From: an uncultured Burkholderiales bacterium
GTDB lineage: Bacteria; Pseudomonadota; Gammaproteobacteria; Burkholderiales; Burkholderiaceae_C
DNA length: 64,000 nucleotides
NCBI GenBank assembly: GCA_903838355.1
Contig: CAILYC010000006.1
Location: 62,001 to 126,000, forward strand
Reading direction: 5' to 3'
Positions within the stretch are counted from its first letter, which is position 1, and each line of letters begins with the position of its first letter. Positions 52,230 through 56,689 of the stretch are shown piece after piece. Below the pieces are notes generated by a model. It saw nothing but the letters and a program-made list of their open reading frames with translations. It was not told the origin of the DNA and searched no databases. The translations under genes and the position numbers were made by a program.

Positions 52230-53090
52230 TCACTGAGGACGAATACTGATCTCGCCCGCTTGCAACGCTTGCCTCACGCCGTCGATGTCGAGCAGCAACT
52301 CACCGCATTCATTGACCCCCAAGGCCCGCCCGCGCCTTGCGTCAGAGAGCTGGACTTGGCGCCCTTTGAGGCAATCCAAGCGGTCAAAGTCGGCCTTGAA
52401 GGGGGCAAAACCCGAGGCTTCAAATTGATGCAATGCTTGGCTGAGCGAGACCAAGACACTCGCGAGCAGGGCATGGCGCTCATCGCTTGAGTTCAGTCTC
52501 GCCCCCAAGTCGAGGAGTCCTTTGGCCGGTGGGCAGACGACGCCCAAGCCCTCGGTGTTGGGGGTGTGCAAATTAATCCCCACGCCCACCACACAAAACC
52601 GGGCTTGTGATGCAGGCGAGCGCAGAGTGGTGTTTTTCTGATCGGGGGCGGTTCTCAGGCTTTGGGTTTCGATCAAGAGGCCGCCCACCTTGGCCGGGCC
52701 ACGCTCGTCCCAGGCCCAAAGGTCGTTGGGCCATTTGAGGCTCAAGGCCGGTGAGCAGGCAAGGCTTGGCGGCAAAAAAGCAGACAGCCCTTTGACGACC
52801 GCCACCCCACAGGCCAAGGACAAGCCCAACCAGTGGAGCGGCTCAAGGGTGCAGGCCATTGAAAAGGCAATGCTTTGGCGCGGGGGGCTGAGCCACGGTT
52901 TGCCCGAACGGCCCCGTCCAGCGGTCTGTTTTTGCGCAATCAAGACCGTGGCTTGGTGGTCCAACTGGTGGCCTCGGCGCATGAGTTCAGACGAGGTGGA
53001 GTCGATTTCTTTGACCAACTCAATGCGCCAATGGGCGAGGGATTCGCCCAGGGACCGCTGCAAAGTCTCCTCGATCCAGGGGTGTTCCAT
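52230..53090 (-). CDS. birA: Biotin-[acetyl-CoA-carboxylase] ligase
   Basis: A 286-residue enzyme that makes biotinyl-AMP and attaches biotin to AccB. The core shows EIDSTSSELMRRG, AQKQTAGRGRSGKPWLSPP (the adenylate loop), LKWPNDLWAW and VGVGINLH. The N-terminal DNA-binding domain of E. coli BirA is absent, so it should not repress transcription itself. The usual neighbour coaX is not present; a SET-domain gene lies upstream with 26 bases between. ATG at 53090 gives the expected beginning. Confidence 0.92.
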   Translation of the reverse strand: MEHPWIEETLQRSLGESLAHWRIELVKEIDSTSSELMRRGHQLDHQATVLIAQKQTAGRGRSGKPWLSPPRQSIAFSMACTLEPLHWLGLSLACGVAVVKGLSAFLPPSLACSPALSLKWPNDLWAWDERGPAKVGGLLIETQSLRTAPDQKNTTLRSPASQARFCVVGVGINLHTPNTEGLGVVCPPAKGLLDLGARLNSSDERHALLASVLVSLSQALHQFEASGFAPFKADFDRLDCLKGRQVQLSDARRGRALGVNECGELLLDIDGVRQALQAGEISIRPQ

Positions 53091-53116: not shown

Positions 53117-53611
53117 TTATTTCTTTTTCTTTTTGGGCGGTTTGGGGGCCAAGAGCGTGCCTCGGCAAAGGGGTGAGCCACACCAGCAAGGGTATTGGGC
53201 TTTGAGCTTTGCGGTATAGCGCTCATCAATGATGAGGCCATAGTCGTAGTTGAGCTCTTCGCCCGCTGCGATTGCTCTAATCGATTTGATAAAGACGCGG
53301 CCATTTTTTTCATCGGCTTCACAATTGGGATCACAAGCGTGGTTGATCCAACGCGCCCGGTTGCCAGCCGACCCACCATCGATCACGTGCTTTTCATTGA
53401 TGTGAAAATAAAAGGTGTGGTTGGGGTCACTCGGATCGTGCGGATGGCGTCTTTGGGCCTCGCGCCAGGTGATGACCTCCCCTTTGTATTCAATGATCTT
53501 CTTCCCAGGCTCGATGTCGACCAGGGCAAACACGCCTTTGCCGTGGACCCCAGAGCTGCGGGCTTCGATGCGTTTTTTGGGGGAGAGCTTGGACTTTTCT
53601 TGGGTGGACAT
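53117..53611 (-). CDS. SET-domain protein lysine methyltransferase
   Basis: A 164-residue protein that is almost only a SET domain. SAM-binding GVHGKGVFALVDIEPG begins it, RARWINHACDPNCEAD gives the pseudoknot NHxCxPNC motif, and GEELNYDYG has the catalytic tyrosine. A post-SET cysteine cluster CWCGSPLCRG closes it. These are all the motifs needed for a lysine methyltransferase. The C-terminal tail is Pro then five lysines, and the N-terminal tail is also basic. In Chlamydia related SET proteins methylate histone-like proteins; the substrate here is unknown. It is divergent from topB, whose product has a lysine-rich tail. Confidence 0.9.
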   Translation of the reverse strand: MSTQEKSKLSPKKRIEARSSGVHGKGVFALVDIEPGKKIIEYKGEVITWREAQRRHPHDPSDPNHTFYFHINEKHVIDGGSAGNRARWINHACDPNCEADEKNGRVFIKSIRAIAAGEELNYDYGLIIDERYTAKLKAQYPCWCGSPLCRGTLLAPKPPKKKKK

Positions 53612-53743
53612 GGTGGGATTTCAATTCAGTAAAGGCGCCTGTCAAAATGAGCAGGTGAACACGTTCAAGAGGACAATTTTAGAGGTTTTGCCAACTTGCC
53701 GCCAAAAAAGTTGGACAATGCCATGCATGAAGGACACAACTCA

Positions 53744-56689
53744 ATGAGTAAAACACTGGTAATTGCTGAGAAACCATCGGTCGCGCAAGACATTGTTCGC
53801 GCCCTCACCAGCGTGGCGGGGAAGTTTGAAAAGCACGACGACCATTTTGAGAGTGAGACCTATGTCGTCACCAGTGCCGTGGGGCATTTGCTCGAGATCA
53901 AAGCGCCCGAAGAGTTTGATGTCAAGCGCGGCAAGTGGAGCTTCGCCCACCTGCCCGTGATACCGCCCCACTTTGAGCTCAAGCCCGTGGACAAGACCAA
54001 GTCTCGGCTCAACGCCGTGGTCAAACTGGTCAAACGAAAAGACGTCACCGCCTTGATCAATGCTTGTGATGCTGGGCGCGAAGGCGAGCTCATTTTCCGG
54101 CTGATTGAGCAATATGCGGGCAGCAAAAAAGACCTTAAAAAACCCGTCAAGCGCCTTTGGCTTCAGTCCATGACGCCCCAGTCCATTCGAGACGGCTTCA
54201 ACGCCTTGAGAAGCGAGCAGCAAATGCAAGGCCTGGCCGATGCGGCGAGATCACGCTCCGAGGCCGATTGGTTGGTGGGCATCAACGGCACGCGCGCCTT
54301 TACCGCCTTTAACTCTCGCGATGGCGGGTTTTTTCTGACGACGGTGGGTCGCGTGCAAACCCCCACTTTGTCGGTGGTGGTCGCGCGTGAAGAGCTGATC
54401 CGCAAATTCATCTCCCGCGACTATTGGGAAATTCACGCCAATTTTCAGGTCAAGGCCGGCGAGTACGTCTCCAAGTGGATCAACCCCAACCACAAAAAAG
54501 ACGACACCGATGTCGAGAAAAAAGCCGATCGCCTCTGGAGCGAGTCCGATGCCCAAGCCGTTGCCCTTGCCGTGGTGAACCAGCCAGGTGTCGTCACCGA
54601 GGAGAGCAAGCCCACCACCCAGGCGGCCCCCGCCTTGTTTGATTTGACAAGTTTGCAGCGCGAGGCCAATGGCCGCTTTGGTTTTTCCGCCAAGTCCACC
54701 TTGGCCCTGGCCCAAAGTCTTTATGAGCGCCACAAGGCCCTGACCTACCCCAGAACCGACTCCAGGCATTTGCCCGAGGACTATTTGCCCACGGTCAAAG
54801 ACACTTTTGAGATGATTGCGGGCAGTGGCATGAAGCACCTCTCAAGCTTTGCCAAGACGGCCATCAAGAGCAACTTCATCAAAGCCAGCAAGCGTGTGTT
54901 TGACAACAGCAAAGTGAGTGATCACTTCGCCATCATTCCAACGCTGGAGGAGCCCAAGGGCTTGTCTGAGCCCGAACAAAAGCTCTACGACTTGGTGGTG
55001 AGGCGTTTCATGGCGATCTTTTACCCCTCGGCCGAGTTCTTGGTGACCACCCGCACGACCCAGGTCAAGCTCAGCGACGTCACGCACCATTTCCGGGTCG
55101 AAGGCAAGGTGTTGGTCAACGCGGGGTGGATGAGCATTTACGGCAAAGACGCGAGTGACGATGAGCCCAACGCCAAGACCTTGGTGGCGATTGAGGCCGG
55201 TGAGCTTAGCCACACCCAGGATGCCCAGGCCAAGGCCTTGAAAACCCGCCCGCCCGCGCGATTTTCAGAAGCGACGCTCTTGGGCGCCATGGAAGGGGCG
55301 GGCAAATCCATTGAAGACGATGAGCTCAGAGAGGCCATGCAGGAAAAGGGACTGGGCACACCAGCCACTCGGGCGGCCACCATCGAGGGGCTTTTGAACG
55401 AAAAATACATGCTCCGTGACGCTCGGGAATTGATCCCCACGGCCAAAGCGTTTCAACTCATGACCTTGTTGCGCGGCTTGGGCGTGGAGGAGCTCTCCAA
55501 GCCTGAGCTCACTGGCGAGTGGGAGCATAAATTGTCCTTGATGGAGCACGGTGAGCTCTCGCGCGAGTCGTTCATGAAAGACATCGCCGACATGACCGAG
55601 CACATCGTCAAAAAAGCCAAAGAGTACGACAAGGACACCATCCCAGGCGACTACGTCACCTTGACCACGCCGTGTCCCAAGTGTGGCGGGCAAGTCAAAG
55701 AAAACTACCGTCGCTACACCTGTCAAGGCGTTGATGGGCAAAGCACCGGATGCGGTTTTTCTTTTGGCAAGACCCCAGCTGGGCGCGCCTTCGAGTTGAC
55801 CGAAGTGGATGCCTTTTTGGCCAACAAACGCATTGGCCCCTTGGATGGGTTTCGCTCCAAAGCGGGCTGGCCTTTCAGCGCCGAGATTGCGCTCAAATTC
55901 AATGAAGAGGAACAAAACTGGAAGCTTGAGTTTGATTTTGGTGAAGACAAGAATGCGCTCGAGAGCGGTGAGTTGGTTGACTTTGGTGAACAAGTGCCCT
56001 TGGGGGCGTGTCCGTCTTGCGGTGCACGGGTGTTTGAGCGGGGGCAAAACTATGTGTGCGAACACTCGCTGCCCAATGTGCTGCAGGCCACGCCGACTTG
56101 CACCTTCAAGAGCGGCAAAATCGTCTTGCAGCAACCCGTGGAGCACGAGCAGATCAAAAAACTGCTGGAGACGGGCAAAACCGATTTGCTTGATAAATTT
56201 GTCTCGATGAGAACACGCCGCGCGTTCAAGGCCTATTTGGCTTGGGACGCCACAGCGGGGAAAGTCCAGTTTGAGTTCGAGCCCAGAGTCAGCAAGTACC
56301 CACCGCGTAAAACGCCGTCCAAAACAACGGGTAAAGTGGCTGGTAAAGTGGCAGGGAAAACAGCCGCCAAATCGGGCAAAGCCACCGCCACCGCCAAAAC
56401 CACCGCCAGCGCCAAGGCGGTGAAGGCCAGCAAGCCCAAAACCCCAAGAAAACCCAGCGCCGGACTCGTGCCCAGCACGGCGTTGGCCCAGGTGATCGGC
56501 AGCGACGCCGCGCCCAGGACCGAGGTGATCAAAAAACTCTGGGATTACATCAAGTCCAAGGGCCTACAAGACCCCAAGGACAAGCGCAAAATCGTCTGTG
56601 ACGCCTCTTTGCAGGCGGTGTTTGGCAAAGACGAAGTCAATATGTTTGAGCTCGCTGGCTTGATTGGTGCCCATTTGAGCGCAGCCTAA
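53744..56689 (+). CDS. topB: DNA topoisomerase III with zinc repeats, H1-like linker and SWIB domain
   Basis: A 981-residue type IA topoisomerase, far longer than E. coli TopB (653). The Toprim domain has LVIAEKPSVAQDI and NACDAGREGELIF (about 108-118). The active-site Tyr335 lies in LTYPRTDSRH. After the core are two cysteine-rich zinc-like regions (CPKCGG and CPSCGA types). Then comes a Lys/Ala/Thr-rich segment (about 860-905) built of TGKVAGKVAGKTAAK-like repeats, as in histone H1 tails, and a C-terminal SWIB/MDM2 domain (about 907-981, KLWDYIKSKGLQDPKDKR). It decatenates single-stranded DNA links. It is divergent from the SET gene. Start 53744 gives MSKTLVIAEK. Confidence 0.94.
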   Translation: MSKTLVIAEKPSVAQDIVRALTSVAGKFEKHDDHFESETYVVTSAVGHLLEIKAPEEFDVKRGKWSFAHLPVIPPHFELKPVDKTKSRLNAVVKLVKRKDVTALINACDAGREGELIFRLIEQYAGSKKDLKKPVKRLWLQSMTPQSIRDGFNALRSEQQMQGLADAARSRSEADWLVGINGTRAFTAFNSRDGGFFLTTVGRVQTPTLSVVVAREELIRKFISRDYWEIHANFQVKAGEYVSKWINPNHKKDDTDVEKKADRLWSESDAQAVALAVVNQPGVVTEESKPTTQAAPALFDLTSLQREANGRFGFSAKSTLALAQSLYERHKALTYPRTDSRHLPEDYLPTVKDTFEMIAGSGMKHLSSFAKTAIKSNFIKASKRVFDNSKVSDHFAIIPTLEEPKGLSEPEQKLYDLVVRRFMAIFYPSAEFLVTTRTTQVKLSDVTHHFRVEGKVLVNAGWMSIYGKDASDDEPNAKTLVAIEAGELSHTQDAQAKALKTRPPARFSEATLLGAMEGAGKSIEDDELREAMQEKGLGTPATRAATIEGLLNEKYMLRDARELIPTAKAFQLMTLLRGLGVEELSKPELTGEWEHKLSLMEHGELSRESFMKDIADMTEHIVKKAKEYDKDTIPGDYVTLTTPCPKCGGQVKENYRRYTCQGVDGQSTGCGFSFGKTPAGRAFELTEVDAFLANKRIGPLDGFRSKAGWPFSAEIALKFNEEEQNWKLEFDFGEDKNALESGELVDFGEQVPLGACPSCGARVFERGQNYVCEHSLPNVLQATPTCTFKSGKIVLQQPVEHEQIKKLLETGKTDLLDKFVSMRTRRAFKAYLAWDATAGKVQFEFEPRVSKYPPRKTPSKTTGKVAGKVAGKTAAKSGKATATAKTTASAKAVKASKPKTPRKPSAGLVPSTALAQVIGSDAAPRTEVIKKLWDYIKSKGLQDPKDKRKIVCDASLQAVFGKDEVNMFELAGLIGAHLSAA

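Follow-up and report, generated by a model that had tools for sequence, protein, structure and literature searches.

Type IA topoisomerases that end in a SWIB domain, and SET-domain enzymes that target histone-like proteins, have both been described in Chlamydia, the former on TopA (PMC12445093) and the latter in a review that covers chlamydial SET enzymes (PMC7819608). Thus the chlamydial parallel drawn in the initial annotation of the DNA studied here is in print. In their treatment of the bacterial enzymes, reviews regard SET proteins largely as host-directed effectors, and BtSET of Burkholderia and LegAS4 are so named (PMC3980110 and PMC7819608). The main text on chlamydial TopA-SWIB (PMC12445093) mentions neither 'topoisomerase III' nor 'SET domain'. 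Supercoiling-sensitive bacterial promoters include those of topoisomerase genes (PMC8422995, PMC5055605 and PMC9825172); the abstracts of these papers deal with discriminator, spacer and promoter structure, and name no Z-prone tract between facing promoters.

Most subscription journals lie outside the literature that we searched, so that an absence from it carries little weight. Within it, we found no work uniting SET domain, topoisomerase III and SWIB, only unrelated plant work on SWIB with topB, only phage work on SET-domain methyltransferases in Acidovorax, and nothing on a bacterial Z-DNA element at a topoisomerase gene; no natural substrate for the present SET protein was found in the literature either.

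RESULTS

The SET and topB genes and their products

The window (the whole 64000-nucleotide stretch of DNA analysed, from an uncultured Burkholderiales bacterium) contains the following features.

52230..53090, minus strand: birA-like biotin protein ligase gene (Pfam BPL_LplA_LipB, 38 bits, cut-off 21)
53117..53611, minus strand: SET-domain protein lysine methyltransferase, 164 amino acids (activity predicted from Pfam SET and conserved residues)
53612..53743, no strand: divergent intergenic region between topB and SET (alternating tract eroded here, longest alternating run 8 nt)
53676..53681, minus strand: -10-like element TAAAAT in the SET direction (putative promoter, from conserved letters)
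53744..56689, plus strand: topB, DNA topoisomerase III with SWIB, 981 amino acids (Pfam domains and NCBIfam PRK14724)
56288..56470, plus strand: Lys/Ala-rich tail of TopB, 61 residues of which 14 are lysine (by composition)
56471..56677, plus strand: SWIB domain of TopB (Pfam SWIB, E 9e-27)

SET and topB are divergent with their 5' ends together and 132 bp between them, and the birA-like gene follows SET on the same strand after 26 bp. The ATG at 53744 is the likely topB start, the listed reading frame beginning at TTG 53696, and the stop is at 56689. No tRNAs were found close to the pair. The description of a compact SET gene back to back with a topoisomerase III that bears a Lys/Ala tail and SWIB is therefore borne out.

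The SET protein scored 84 bits with Pfam SET, for which the cut-off is 22.4 (E-value 1e-23). All of its catalytic motifs are present, as the initial annotation had stated: His23, Gly24, Gly26, Asn90, His91, Cys93, Glu119, Leu120, Asp123 and Tyr124 were invariant across 21 aligned SET homologues, as were the post-SET cysteine residues Cys142, Cys144 and Cys149, and at set cut-offs the catalytic and post-SET residues were retained in 129 sequences of the family and in 59 from elsewhere. The window protein also has a Lys-rich C-terminus, and Lys-rich tails are present on many SET proteins. The nearest solved structures are MLL1/KMT2A SET domains (E about 1e-38). It thus has catalytic and post-SET motifs in common with SET1/MLL (KMT2A), but is bacterial, only 164 amino acids long and without partner domains. 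BtSET, which we compared by its description in the reviews (PMC3980110 and PMC7819608), LegAS4 and cpnSET are bacterial SET enzymes too, whereas the window gene is chromosomal and sits in a fixed topB-SET-birA block.

TopB matched Pfam Topoisom_bac, Toprim, Toprim_Crpt and SWIB, and scored 1788 bits against NCBIfam NF011313/PRK14724 'DNA topoisomerase III' (cut-off 1088). An NCBI family for topoisomerase III with SWIB thus exists already, and the window protein is an ordinary member of it; full length and domain order are the same and nothing essential differs. The SWIB carrier is TopA in Chlamydia and TopB in the window. The tail between the core and SWIB is a low-complexity sequence, and the proposed likeness to histone H1 is one of Lys/Ala composition.

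The topB-SET-birA block is conserved in Comamonadaceae

We analysed 150 Comamonadaceae genomes, from which 140 fetched loci plus the window gave a family set of 141; nine genomes were excluded, G043 having no topB match and eight having a fragmentary or low-scoring topB (G041, G057, G083, G102, G104, G109, G110 and G131). SET adjoined topB in 130/141 loci and was divergent in all 130. The same divergent pair was seen in 79 of the 80 loci of a named set, six of which are identical with family-set genomes. A survey of adjacency had been set beforehand as a test of the pairing, and the pair passes it, being conserved far past close strains. SET is tied to birA as tightly as to topB, with birA its neighbour in 125/126 loci, and in the SET-less loci L122, L133, L135 and L182 birA is divergent to topB. 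One locus (L172, genome G017) was counted as SET-adjacent although its SET runs into undetermined letters with no birA match beside it; the same genome has a separate SET-birA pair elsewhere (L242). Thus topB and SET-birA form a fixed chromosomal block of Comamonadaceae, although no connection with DNA topology is apparent for birA.

The adjacency is independent of SWIB, as SET lies beside topB in 68/71 loci with SWIB and in 62/70 without. On the TopB tree the adjacency is the older of the two: SWIB presence changes four times, nested inside the range of the SET-topB pair. Nor does the tail follow SET. Nearly all Comamonadaceae TopBs have a Lys-rich tail, including those of the SET-less loci L122, L128, L133 and L135; tail lysines are carried by 16/16 TopBs from genomes of the order in which this SET found no match, and the TopB tail has only 0–1 lysine in family f6, although SET and topB are neighbours there. 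Hence, of the SET-TopB module put forward in the initial annotation, the conserved pairing stands, but the Lys/Ala tail plus SWIB as the partner of SET finds no support; on tail composition, SWIB presence and the TopB tree we rejected the tail as the main cause of the pairing.

SET neighbours outside the family

Gene order around SET is altered in other families, and in f6 the contact with topB occurs in an arrangement different from that of Comamonadaceae. SET lies directly after gyrB in g172 (10/10 loci), f6 (3/3 evaluable) and L422, and is divergent to HU in g534 (9/9), g232 (8/8) and L421. With the queries used, no gyrB, HU or topB was seen beside SET in, for example, L040, L044, L046, L047, L060, L303, L412–L415 and L430. 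In the wider class a PF00856 match was present in 109/369 genomes, and 27 newly fetched SET loci of that class (L252–L278, approximately 1.5 kb flanks) gave no TopB match. The gyrB and HU neighbours in some lineages of the order hint at a nucleoid role for SET. The genome of the window has three HU-family matches (L394, L395 and L396); L394 and L396 have no Lys/Ala tail, and L395 was not picked up by the motif.

An alternating tract between facing promoter-like elements

Most relatives' topB/SET gaps hold an alternating purine-pyrimidine tract with a median length of 25 nt (7.4 in shuffled sequence). With gaps below 60 bp by the chosen start left out (121 of 130 kept), a tract of at least 14 nt was found in 105/121 family gaps against 0/130 controls, the other 16 gaps falling below 14 nt; a second tally covered 123 gaps without the window, with slightly different bounds. 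Alternating runs of at least 18 nt numbered 97 in 20423 bp of gaps against 10 in 1545173 bp of flanks. In 6/8 complete genomes the tract is one of 1–3 such places per genome, and G060 and G133 have no 22-nt alternating run at topB. The tract is missing from the window and from L314, in both of which the longest alternating run is 8 nt.

Substitutions were compared in 47 pairs, skipping those whose first member had a tract below 14 nt. Transversions amounted to 13/1122 within the tract against 242/3949 in the rest of the gap, approximately a fifth of the rate, and transitions to 74/1122 against 180/3949. This pattern suggests that in the relatives, though not in the window, selection keeps the alternation while the letters vary. 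The tract remains at topB in three of the five readable SET-less loci (L128, L135 and L182); L122 has no tract and L133 only pieces of 10–11 nt (in this reading five of the 29 SET loci were unread by the motif, namely L232, L234, L240, L242 and L048).

Two conserved -10-like elements face each other across the tract, in 88/108 and 85/94 cases against 17 and 0.9 in shuffled sequence, and from their conserved letters we regard them as putative promoters. TAAAAT of the window lies approximately 64 nt upstream of the SET start; the corresponding element in relatives is TACAAT, at a median of 68 nt.

Base composition did not account for the tract, as the correlation of its length with GC content was r = 0.09 in the family set and a weak r = 0.39 in the named set. 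A coding role was likewise rejected, no reading frame being favoured (61, 71 and 55 of 91 open). A crude calculation of B–Z energetics gave 0.040 compared with 0.0435 in random windows, only a modest edge. Alternation lowered the RNA folding energy relative to full shuffles (mean z of -1.7 and -2.3, 60/91 loci), but there was no gain over shuffles that keep the alternation (mean z of -0.12 and -0.16), and none of the three sequences compared with Rfam (L146, L152 and the window) reached a gathering score.

DISCUSSION

Taken together, the findings favour common control of the two genes over methylation of the TopB tail by SET. We put at roughly 0.45 the probability that the block is held together because its genes share an overlapping control region, rather than through a relation between enzyme and tail. 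Against this count the gaps in which the tract is missing, the small B–Z advantage, the leaning of alternation towards RNA hairpins and the presence of birA. That SET methylates the Lys/Ala tail so as to tune DNA topology, making the two genes an enzyme-substrate module, draws on the near-universal adjacency in the family, the Lys-rich tails of nearly all its TopBs, the renewed contact in f6 in another orientation and the chlamydial enzymes with histone-like targets (PMC7819608); the nearly lysine-free tails of f6, the lysines kept in SET-less loci and in genomes without this SET, and the equally tight birA adjacency make it quite improbable. The SET protein is probably an intracellular SET1/MLL-like lysine methyltransferase whose likeliest targets would be the cell's own DNA-bound Lys-rich proteins, the TopB tail being at most one of several targets and not the cause of the pairing. 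Another nucleoid protein as substrate finds some support in the gyrB and HU neighbours of other lineages. A broader account, in which the substrates of SET are HU, gyrase or further proteins bound to DNA, and its topoisomerase and HU neighbourhoods reflect a joint role, comes close to an even chance: besides these neighbours and the contact with topB in f1 and f6, it fits the MLL-like SET domain and the Lys-rich tails that many SET proteins themselves carry. Against it stand the many SET contexts without gyrB, HU or topB and the two tail-less HU proteins of the window's genome, and since the lineages were grouped after the fact and share history, chance may also explain the gyrB and HU neighbours. 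A secreted host-directed effector like BtSET is scarcely credible. In its favour are the reviews that call BtSET and LegAS4 effectors (PMC3980110 and PMC7819608) and a weak NCBIfam AnkI/LegAS4 match of the window protein (35 bits against a cut-off of 550); against it are the fixed position of the gene within the birA block and the SET-domain match in 141/150 genomes of Comamonadaceae, many of whose members are free-living.

The three genes might also have stayed together by descent alone, with no functional link between SET and topB. We consider such a frozen gene order doubtful: birA is as constant a neighbour of SET as topB, the arrangement differs in other families and loss of SET has no visible effect on the order of topB and birA, whereas contact is seen again in f6 in a different arrangement and the control region is under constraint. 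The tract could instead act in RNA, where the 5' leaders of topB and SET would overlap and the tract would fold into a hairpin or offer a binding site, since alternation is self-complementary and also favours RNA hairpins, and both genes have predicted leaders that include the tract. The absence of a folding gain over alternation-keeping shuffles, the change of letters under persisting alternation, the lack of a preferred reading frame and the missing Rfam matches leave this role unlikely.

As to how a shared control region would operate, the tract may flip to Z-DNA under strong negative supercoiling and absorb several turns just downstream of both putative promoters. Because turns would be taken up there, transcription of topB, and of SET-birA firing back across the tract, would be coupled to the superhelicity on which the topoisomerase acts, in line with the link between topoisomerase gene expression and superhelicity in other bacteria (PMC8422995, PMC5055605 and PMC9825172). 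More specifically, and tentatively, as we hold it to be well short of an even chance, Comamonadaceae may have a Z-DNA supercoiling switch on their topoisomerase gene, in which promoters face each other across a tract of roughly 15–55 bp, excess negative supercoiling drives the Z-form and thereby re-sets the choice between topB and SET-birA, and selection preserves alternation rather than letters. A single torsional signal would then govern two enzymes, the topoisomerase and a lysine methyltransferase of the nucleoid. To our knowledge, natural Z-DNA elements with a bacterial role are hard to find, and a low-transversion tract between the putative promoter elements of topB and the adjacent gene allows torsion sensing by Z-DNA to be tested directly. 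The same locus couples a topoisomerase with a eukaryote-like SET protein, a bacterial substrate of which would tell what these enzymes do. In the species of the window, where the tract is eroded, only the block and the -10-like element of SET are kept.

The divergent SET–topB pair

The initial annotation had placed a SET-domain methyltransferase gene with all catalytic motifs back to back with a gene for a topoisomerase III carrying a lysine-rich tail and a SWIB domain, and Pfam and NCBIfam matches confirmed that both genes are real:

53117–53611, minus strand: SET protein, 164 aa (Pfam SET, 84 bits)
53744 (likely ATG)–56689, plus strand: topB with SWIB, 981 aa (1788 bits to NCBIfam PRK14724)
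26 bp after SET, same strand as SET: birA-like gene (Pfam BPL_LplA_LipB)

SET and topB are divergent with 132 bp between them, and TopB consists of a topoisomerase III core, a C-terminal repeat region, a Lys/Ala-rich linker (14 lysines in 61 residues) and the SWIB domain. Its score against PRK14724 means that TopB-SWIB is already a named form, and both proteins are unexceptional representatives of known families. The window's assembly, which is 87.6% complete, contained one SET match. The catalytic motifs were borne out by an alignment of 21 SET homologues, in which H23-G24-x-G26, N90-H91-x-C93 and E119-L120-x-x-D123-Y124 were invariant, as were the post-SET cysteines C142, C144 and C149; these residues were conserved at >97% in 129 sequences of the window's family, the Comamonadaceae, and at >90% in 59 others. 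The closest structure match to a profile of the homologues was MLL1/KMT2A (E about 1e-38).

A SET domain was found in 141/150 family genomes, and the PRK14724 model matched topB in 149/150 (144 above its cut-off). Among 141 family topB loci (140 fetched plus the window), 130 contained SET, which was divergent to topB in 130/130. Seven of the 11 SET-less loci came from genomes without a SET match (L122, L128, L133, L135, L182, L196 and L197); for the other four (L120, L193, L194 and L201), SET was elsewhere in the genome or the locus lay at a contig end. A scan of named genomes, from which the best 80 loci were taken, all Comamonadaceae (including Acidovorax, Variovorax, Rhodoferax, Polaromonas, Ramlibacter, Limnohabitans, Hydrogenophaga and Curvibacter), gave SET divergent to topB in 79/80, with slight overlap of the two samples as six loci came from the same genomes as the family set. 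At the exception, L364, no topB lay within the ~540 bp available upstream of SET. Thus the pairing reaches beyond close strains. In genome G017 (L172 and L242), SET beside topB runs into undetermined letters, and a second SET–birA pair occurs elsewhere. The TopBs of L193 (G140) and L197 (G089) group on the tree with those of other families, possibly through replacement by transfer or mis-binning.

Independence of SWIB and the lysine-rich tail

The pairing as observed was confirmed, and its interpretation, that SET methylates the TopB tail to tune DNA topology, was partly supported; a lysine-rich tail with SWIB did not hold up as the basis of the pairing, since adjacency was about the same without SWIB, tails persisted without SET, and those of family f6 were nearly lysine-free. 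SWIB was present in 71/141 family TopBs, and SET was adjacent in 68/71 loci with SWIB versus 62/70 without. On the TopB tree (FastTree, 160 sequences) SWIB needs four changes, for which a single gain within the family followed by three losses is the best reading; the pair was already present in SWIB-less early branches. The Lys-rich tail is a general feature: it was kept in SET-less family members L122, L128, L133 and L135, and SET-less L182 had an Arg-only tail. Of 31 TopBs sampled from the wider order, 16 came from genomes in which this SET had no match, and every one of the 16 had tail lysines (2 to 21). The sharpest result against methylation of the tail came from four f6 genomes, in which SET and topB matches were convergent and 14–244 bp apart and the tails contained 0, 1, 1 and 1 lysine. 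Furthermore, birA adjoined SET in 125/126 loci with enough sequence, so that SET is as close to birA as to topB, and birA itself was divergent to topB in SET-less L122, L133, L135 and L182.

In family f10, ~199-aa open frames matching only the tail–SWIB end of the TopB model (G325:C7:12408-12830 and G249:C1:914569-914991) are possible free-standing SWIB proteins. Short motifs recur in the TopB tails of L062–L201, KFPPRKTAA after the core and KAPRKT before SWIB; they resemble histone H3 tail motifs, a likeness that may be due to chance in a low-complexity tail.

An alternating tract between facing promoter-like elements

Among 113 gaps between SET and topB, k-mer counting found ATTGTA in 101, where 3.6 were expected. 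Words such as GCGCGCAC were also overrepresented (75 versus 7.4 expected), and these stem from a long, strictly alternating purine–pyrimidine tract, mostly of CG and CA steps. Across 121 gaps the longest alternating run had a median length of 25 nt, compared with a mean of 7.4 after shuffling. Runs of at least 14 nt occurred in 105/121 gaps versus 0/130 control windows after topB, irrespective of SWIB (51/61 SWIB-bearing and 54/60 SWIB-less loci), and in 74/79 named loci. Runs of at least 18 nt numbered 97 in 20,423 bp of gaps versus 10 in 1,545,173 bp of remaining locus sequence. In eight complete genomes, pyrimidine-first runs of at least 22 nt were found at 1–3 places each (17 in total), including the topB gap in six (not G060 or G133); six other places examined were all within open frames of 266–965 aa.

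The tract was seen in gaps of L062–L201 and L314–L393 and is absent from the window's gap (53612–53743). The longest run was only 8 nt in the window and L314, and 24 nt in the window's genus-mate L125, pointing to erosion of the tract in the window's lineage. In 16 loci from other families the runs upstream of topB were at most 11 nt long, and at 23 loci outside the family those upstream of SET were at most 13 nt. Upstream sequence could be read for five of the SET-less loci. The tract was kept at topB in L128, L135 and L182, with only 10–11 nt pieces in L133 and no tract in L122; thus it seems to belong to topB and whichever gene faces it.

Related gaps were compared in up to 47 non-overlapping pairs, and the substitutions showed that alternation is kept while the letters vary: transversions were found at 13/1122 tract sites versus 242/3949 other gap sites (p 3e-14) and, within short alternating stretches outside the tract, at 31 of 748 sites. 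Transitions were not rarer in the tract (74/1122 versus 180/3949); many could be explained by CpG decay, the missing transversions could not. In 88/108 loci, as against 17 in shuffles, an extended −10-like element (TGN0-2TANNNT) in the topB direction precedes the tract by a median of 10 nt. In 85/94 loci (shuffles: 0.9) the tract is followed, a median of 9 nt on, by an opposing −10 (ATTNTA), which on the other strand reads mostly TACAAT. The two predicted promoters would face each other across the tract.

Z-DNA has been detected at susceptible sites inserted into bacterial DNA, and genes transcribed away from each other raise the negative superhelicity between them (PMC3024258). In this block of fixed orientation, with its constrained tract and flanking elements, the tract may sense torsion for both topB and SET–birA. 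A crude energy calculation put the B–Z transition at |sigma| ~0.040 for the tract, compared with 0.0435 in random windows and 0.051 in the gap of the window, a modest edge over random windows and no proof. The tract may instead act in RNA: folding was no better than in alternation-keeping shuffles, but hairpins are favoured by alternation itself. A main weakness of the analysis is that the window no longer carries the tract. No description of the fixed pairing, or above all of the alternating tract between facing promoter-like elements, turned up in the literature searched.

SET neighbours outside the family

Outside the family SET lies elsewhere, in some cases next to DNA-topology or nucleoid genes. 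It directly follows gyrB in genus g172 (10/10 loci, L284–L293), in L422 (g515) and in f6 (3/3 evaluable, L232, L234 and L235), and is divergent to HU in genera g534 (9/9) and g232 (8/8) and in L421 (g517); this grouping was made after the fact and the lineages share history. Pfam confirmed gyrB, dnaN, dnaA and HU on examples, and many other SET contexts gave no such neighbour with the few queries used. The order dnaA–dnaN–gyrB–SET occurs in f6 and L251, and in L037, L294–L302, L307–L313 and L421 a divergent HU gene lies ~0.7–1.1 kb from SET.

Many Comamonadaceae are free-living. Reviews present BtSET as a secreted effector (PMC3980110, PMC7819608); carried over to the present SET, that reading would fit poorly with its fixed birA-block context in such a family. 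From the neighbours, the likeness to MLL1 and the chlamydial precedent for SET enzymes (PMC7819608), we infer that DNA-bound Lys-rich proteins would be the likeliest targets. Many SET proteins themselves have a long Lys/Ala-rich tail, at either end (L046, L047, L055, L253, L044, L303, L070 and L100), for which self-methylation is conceivable.
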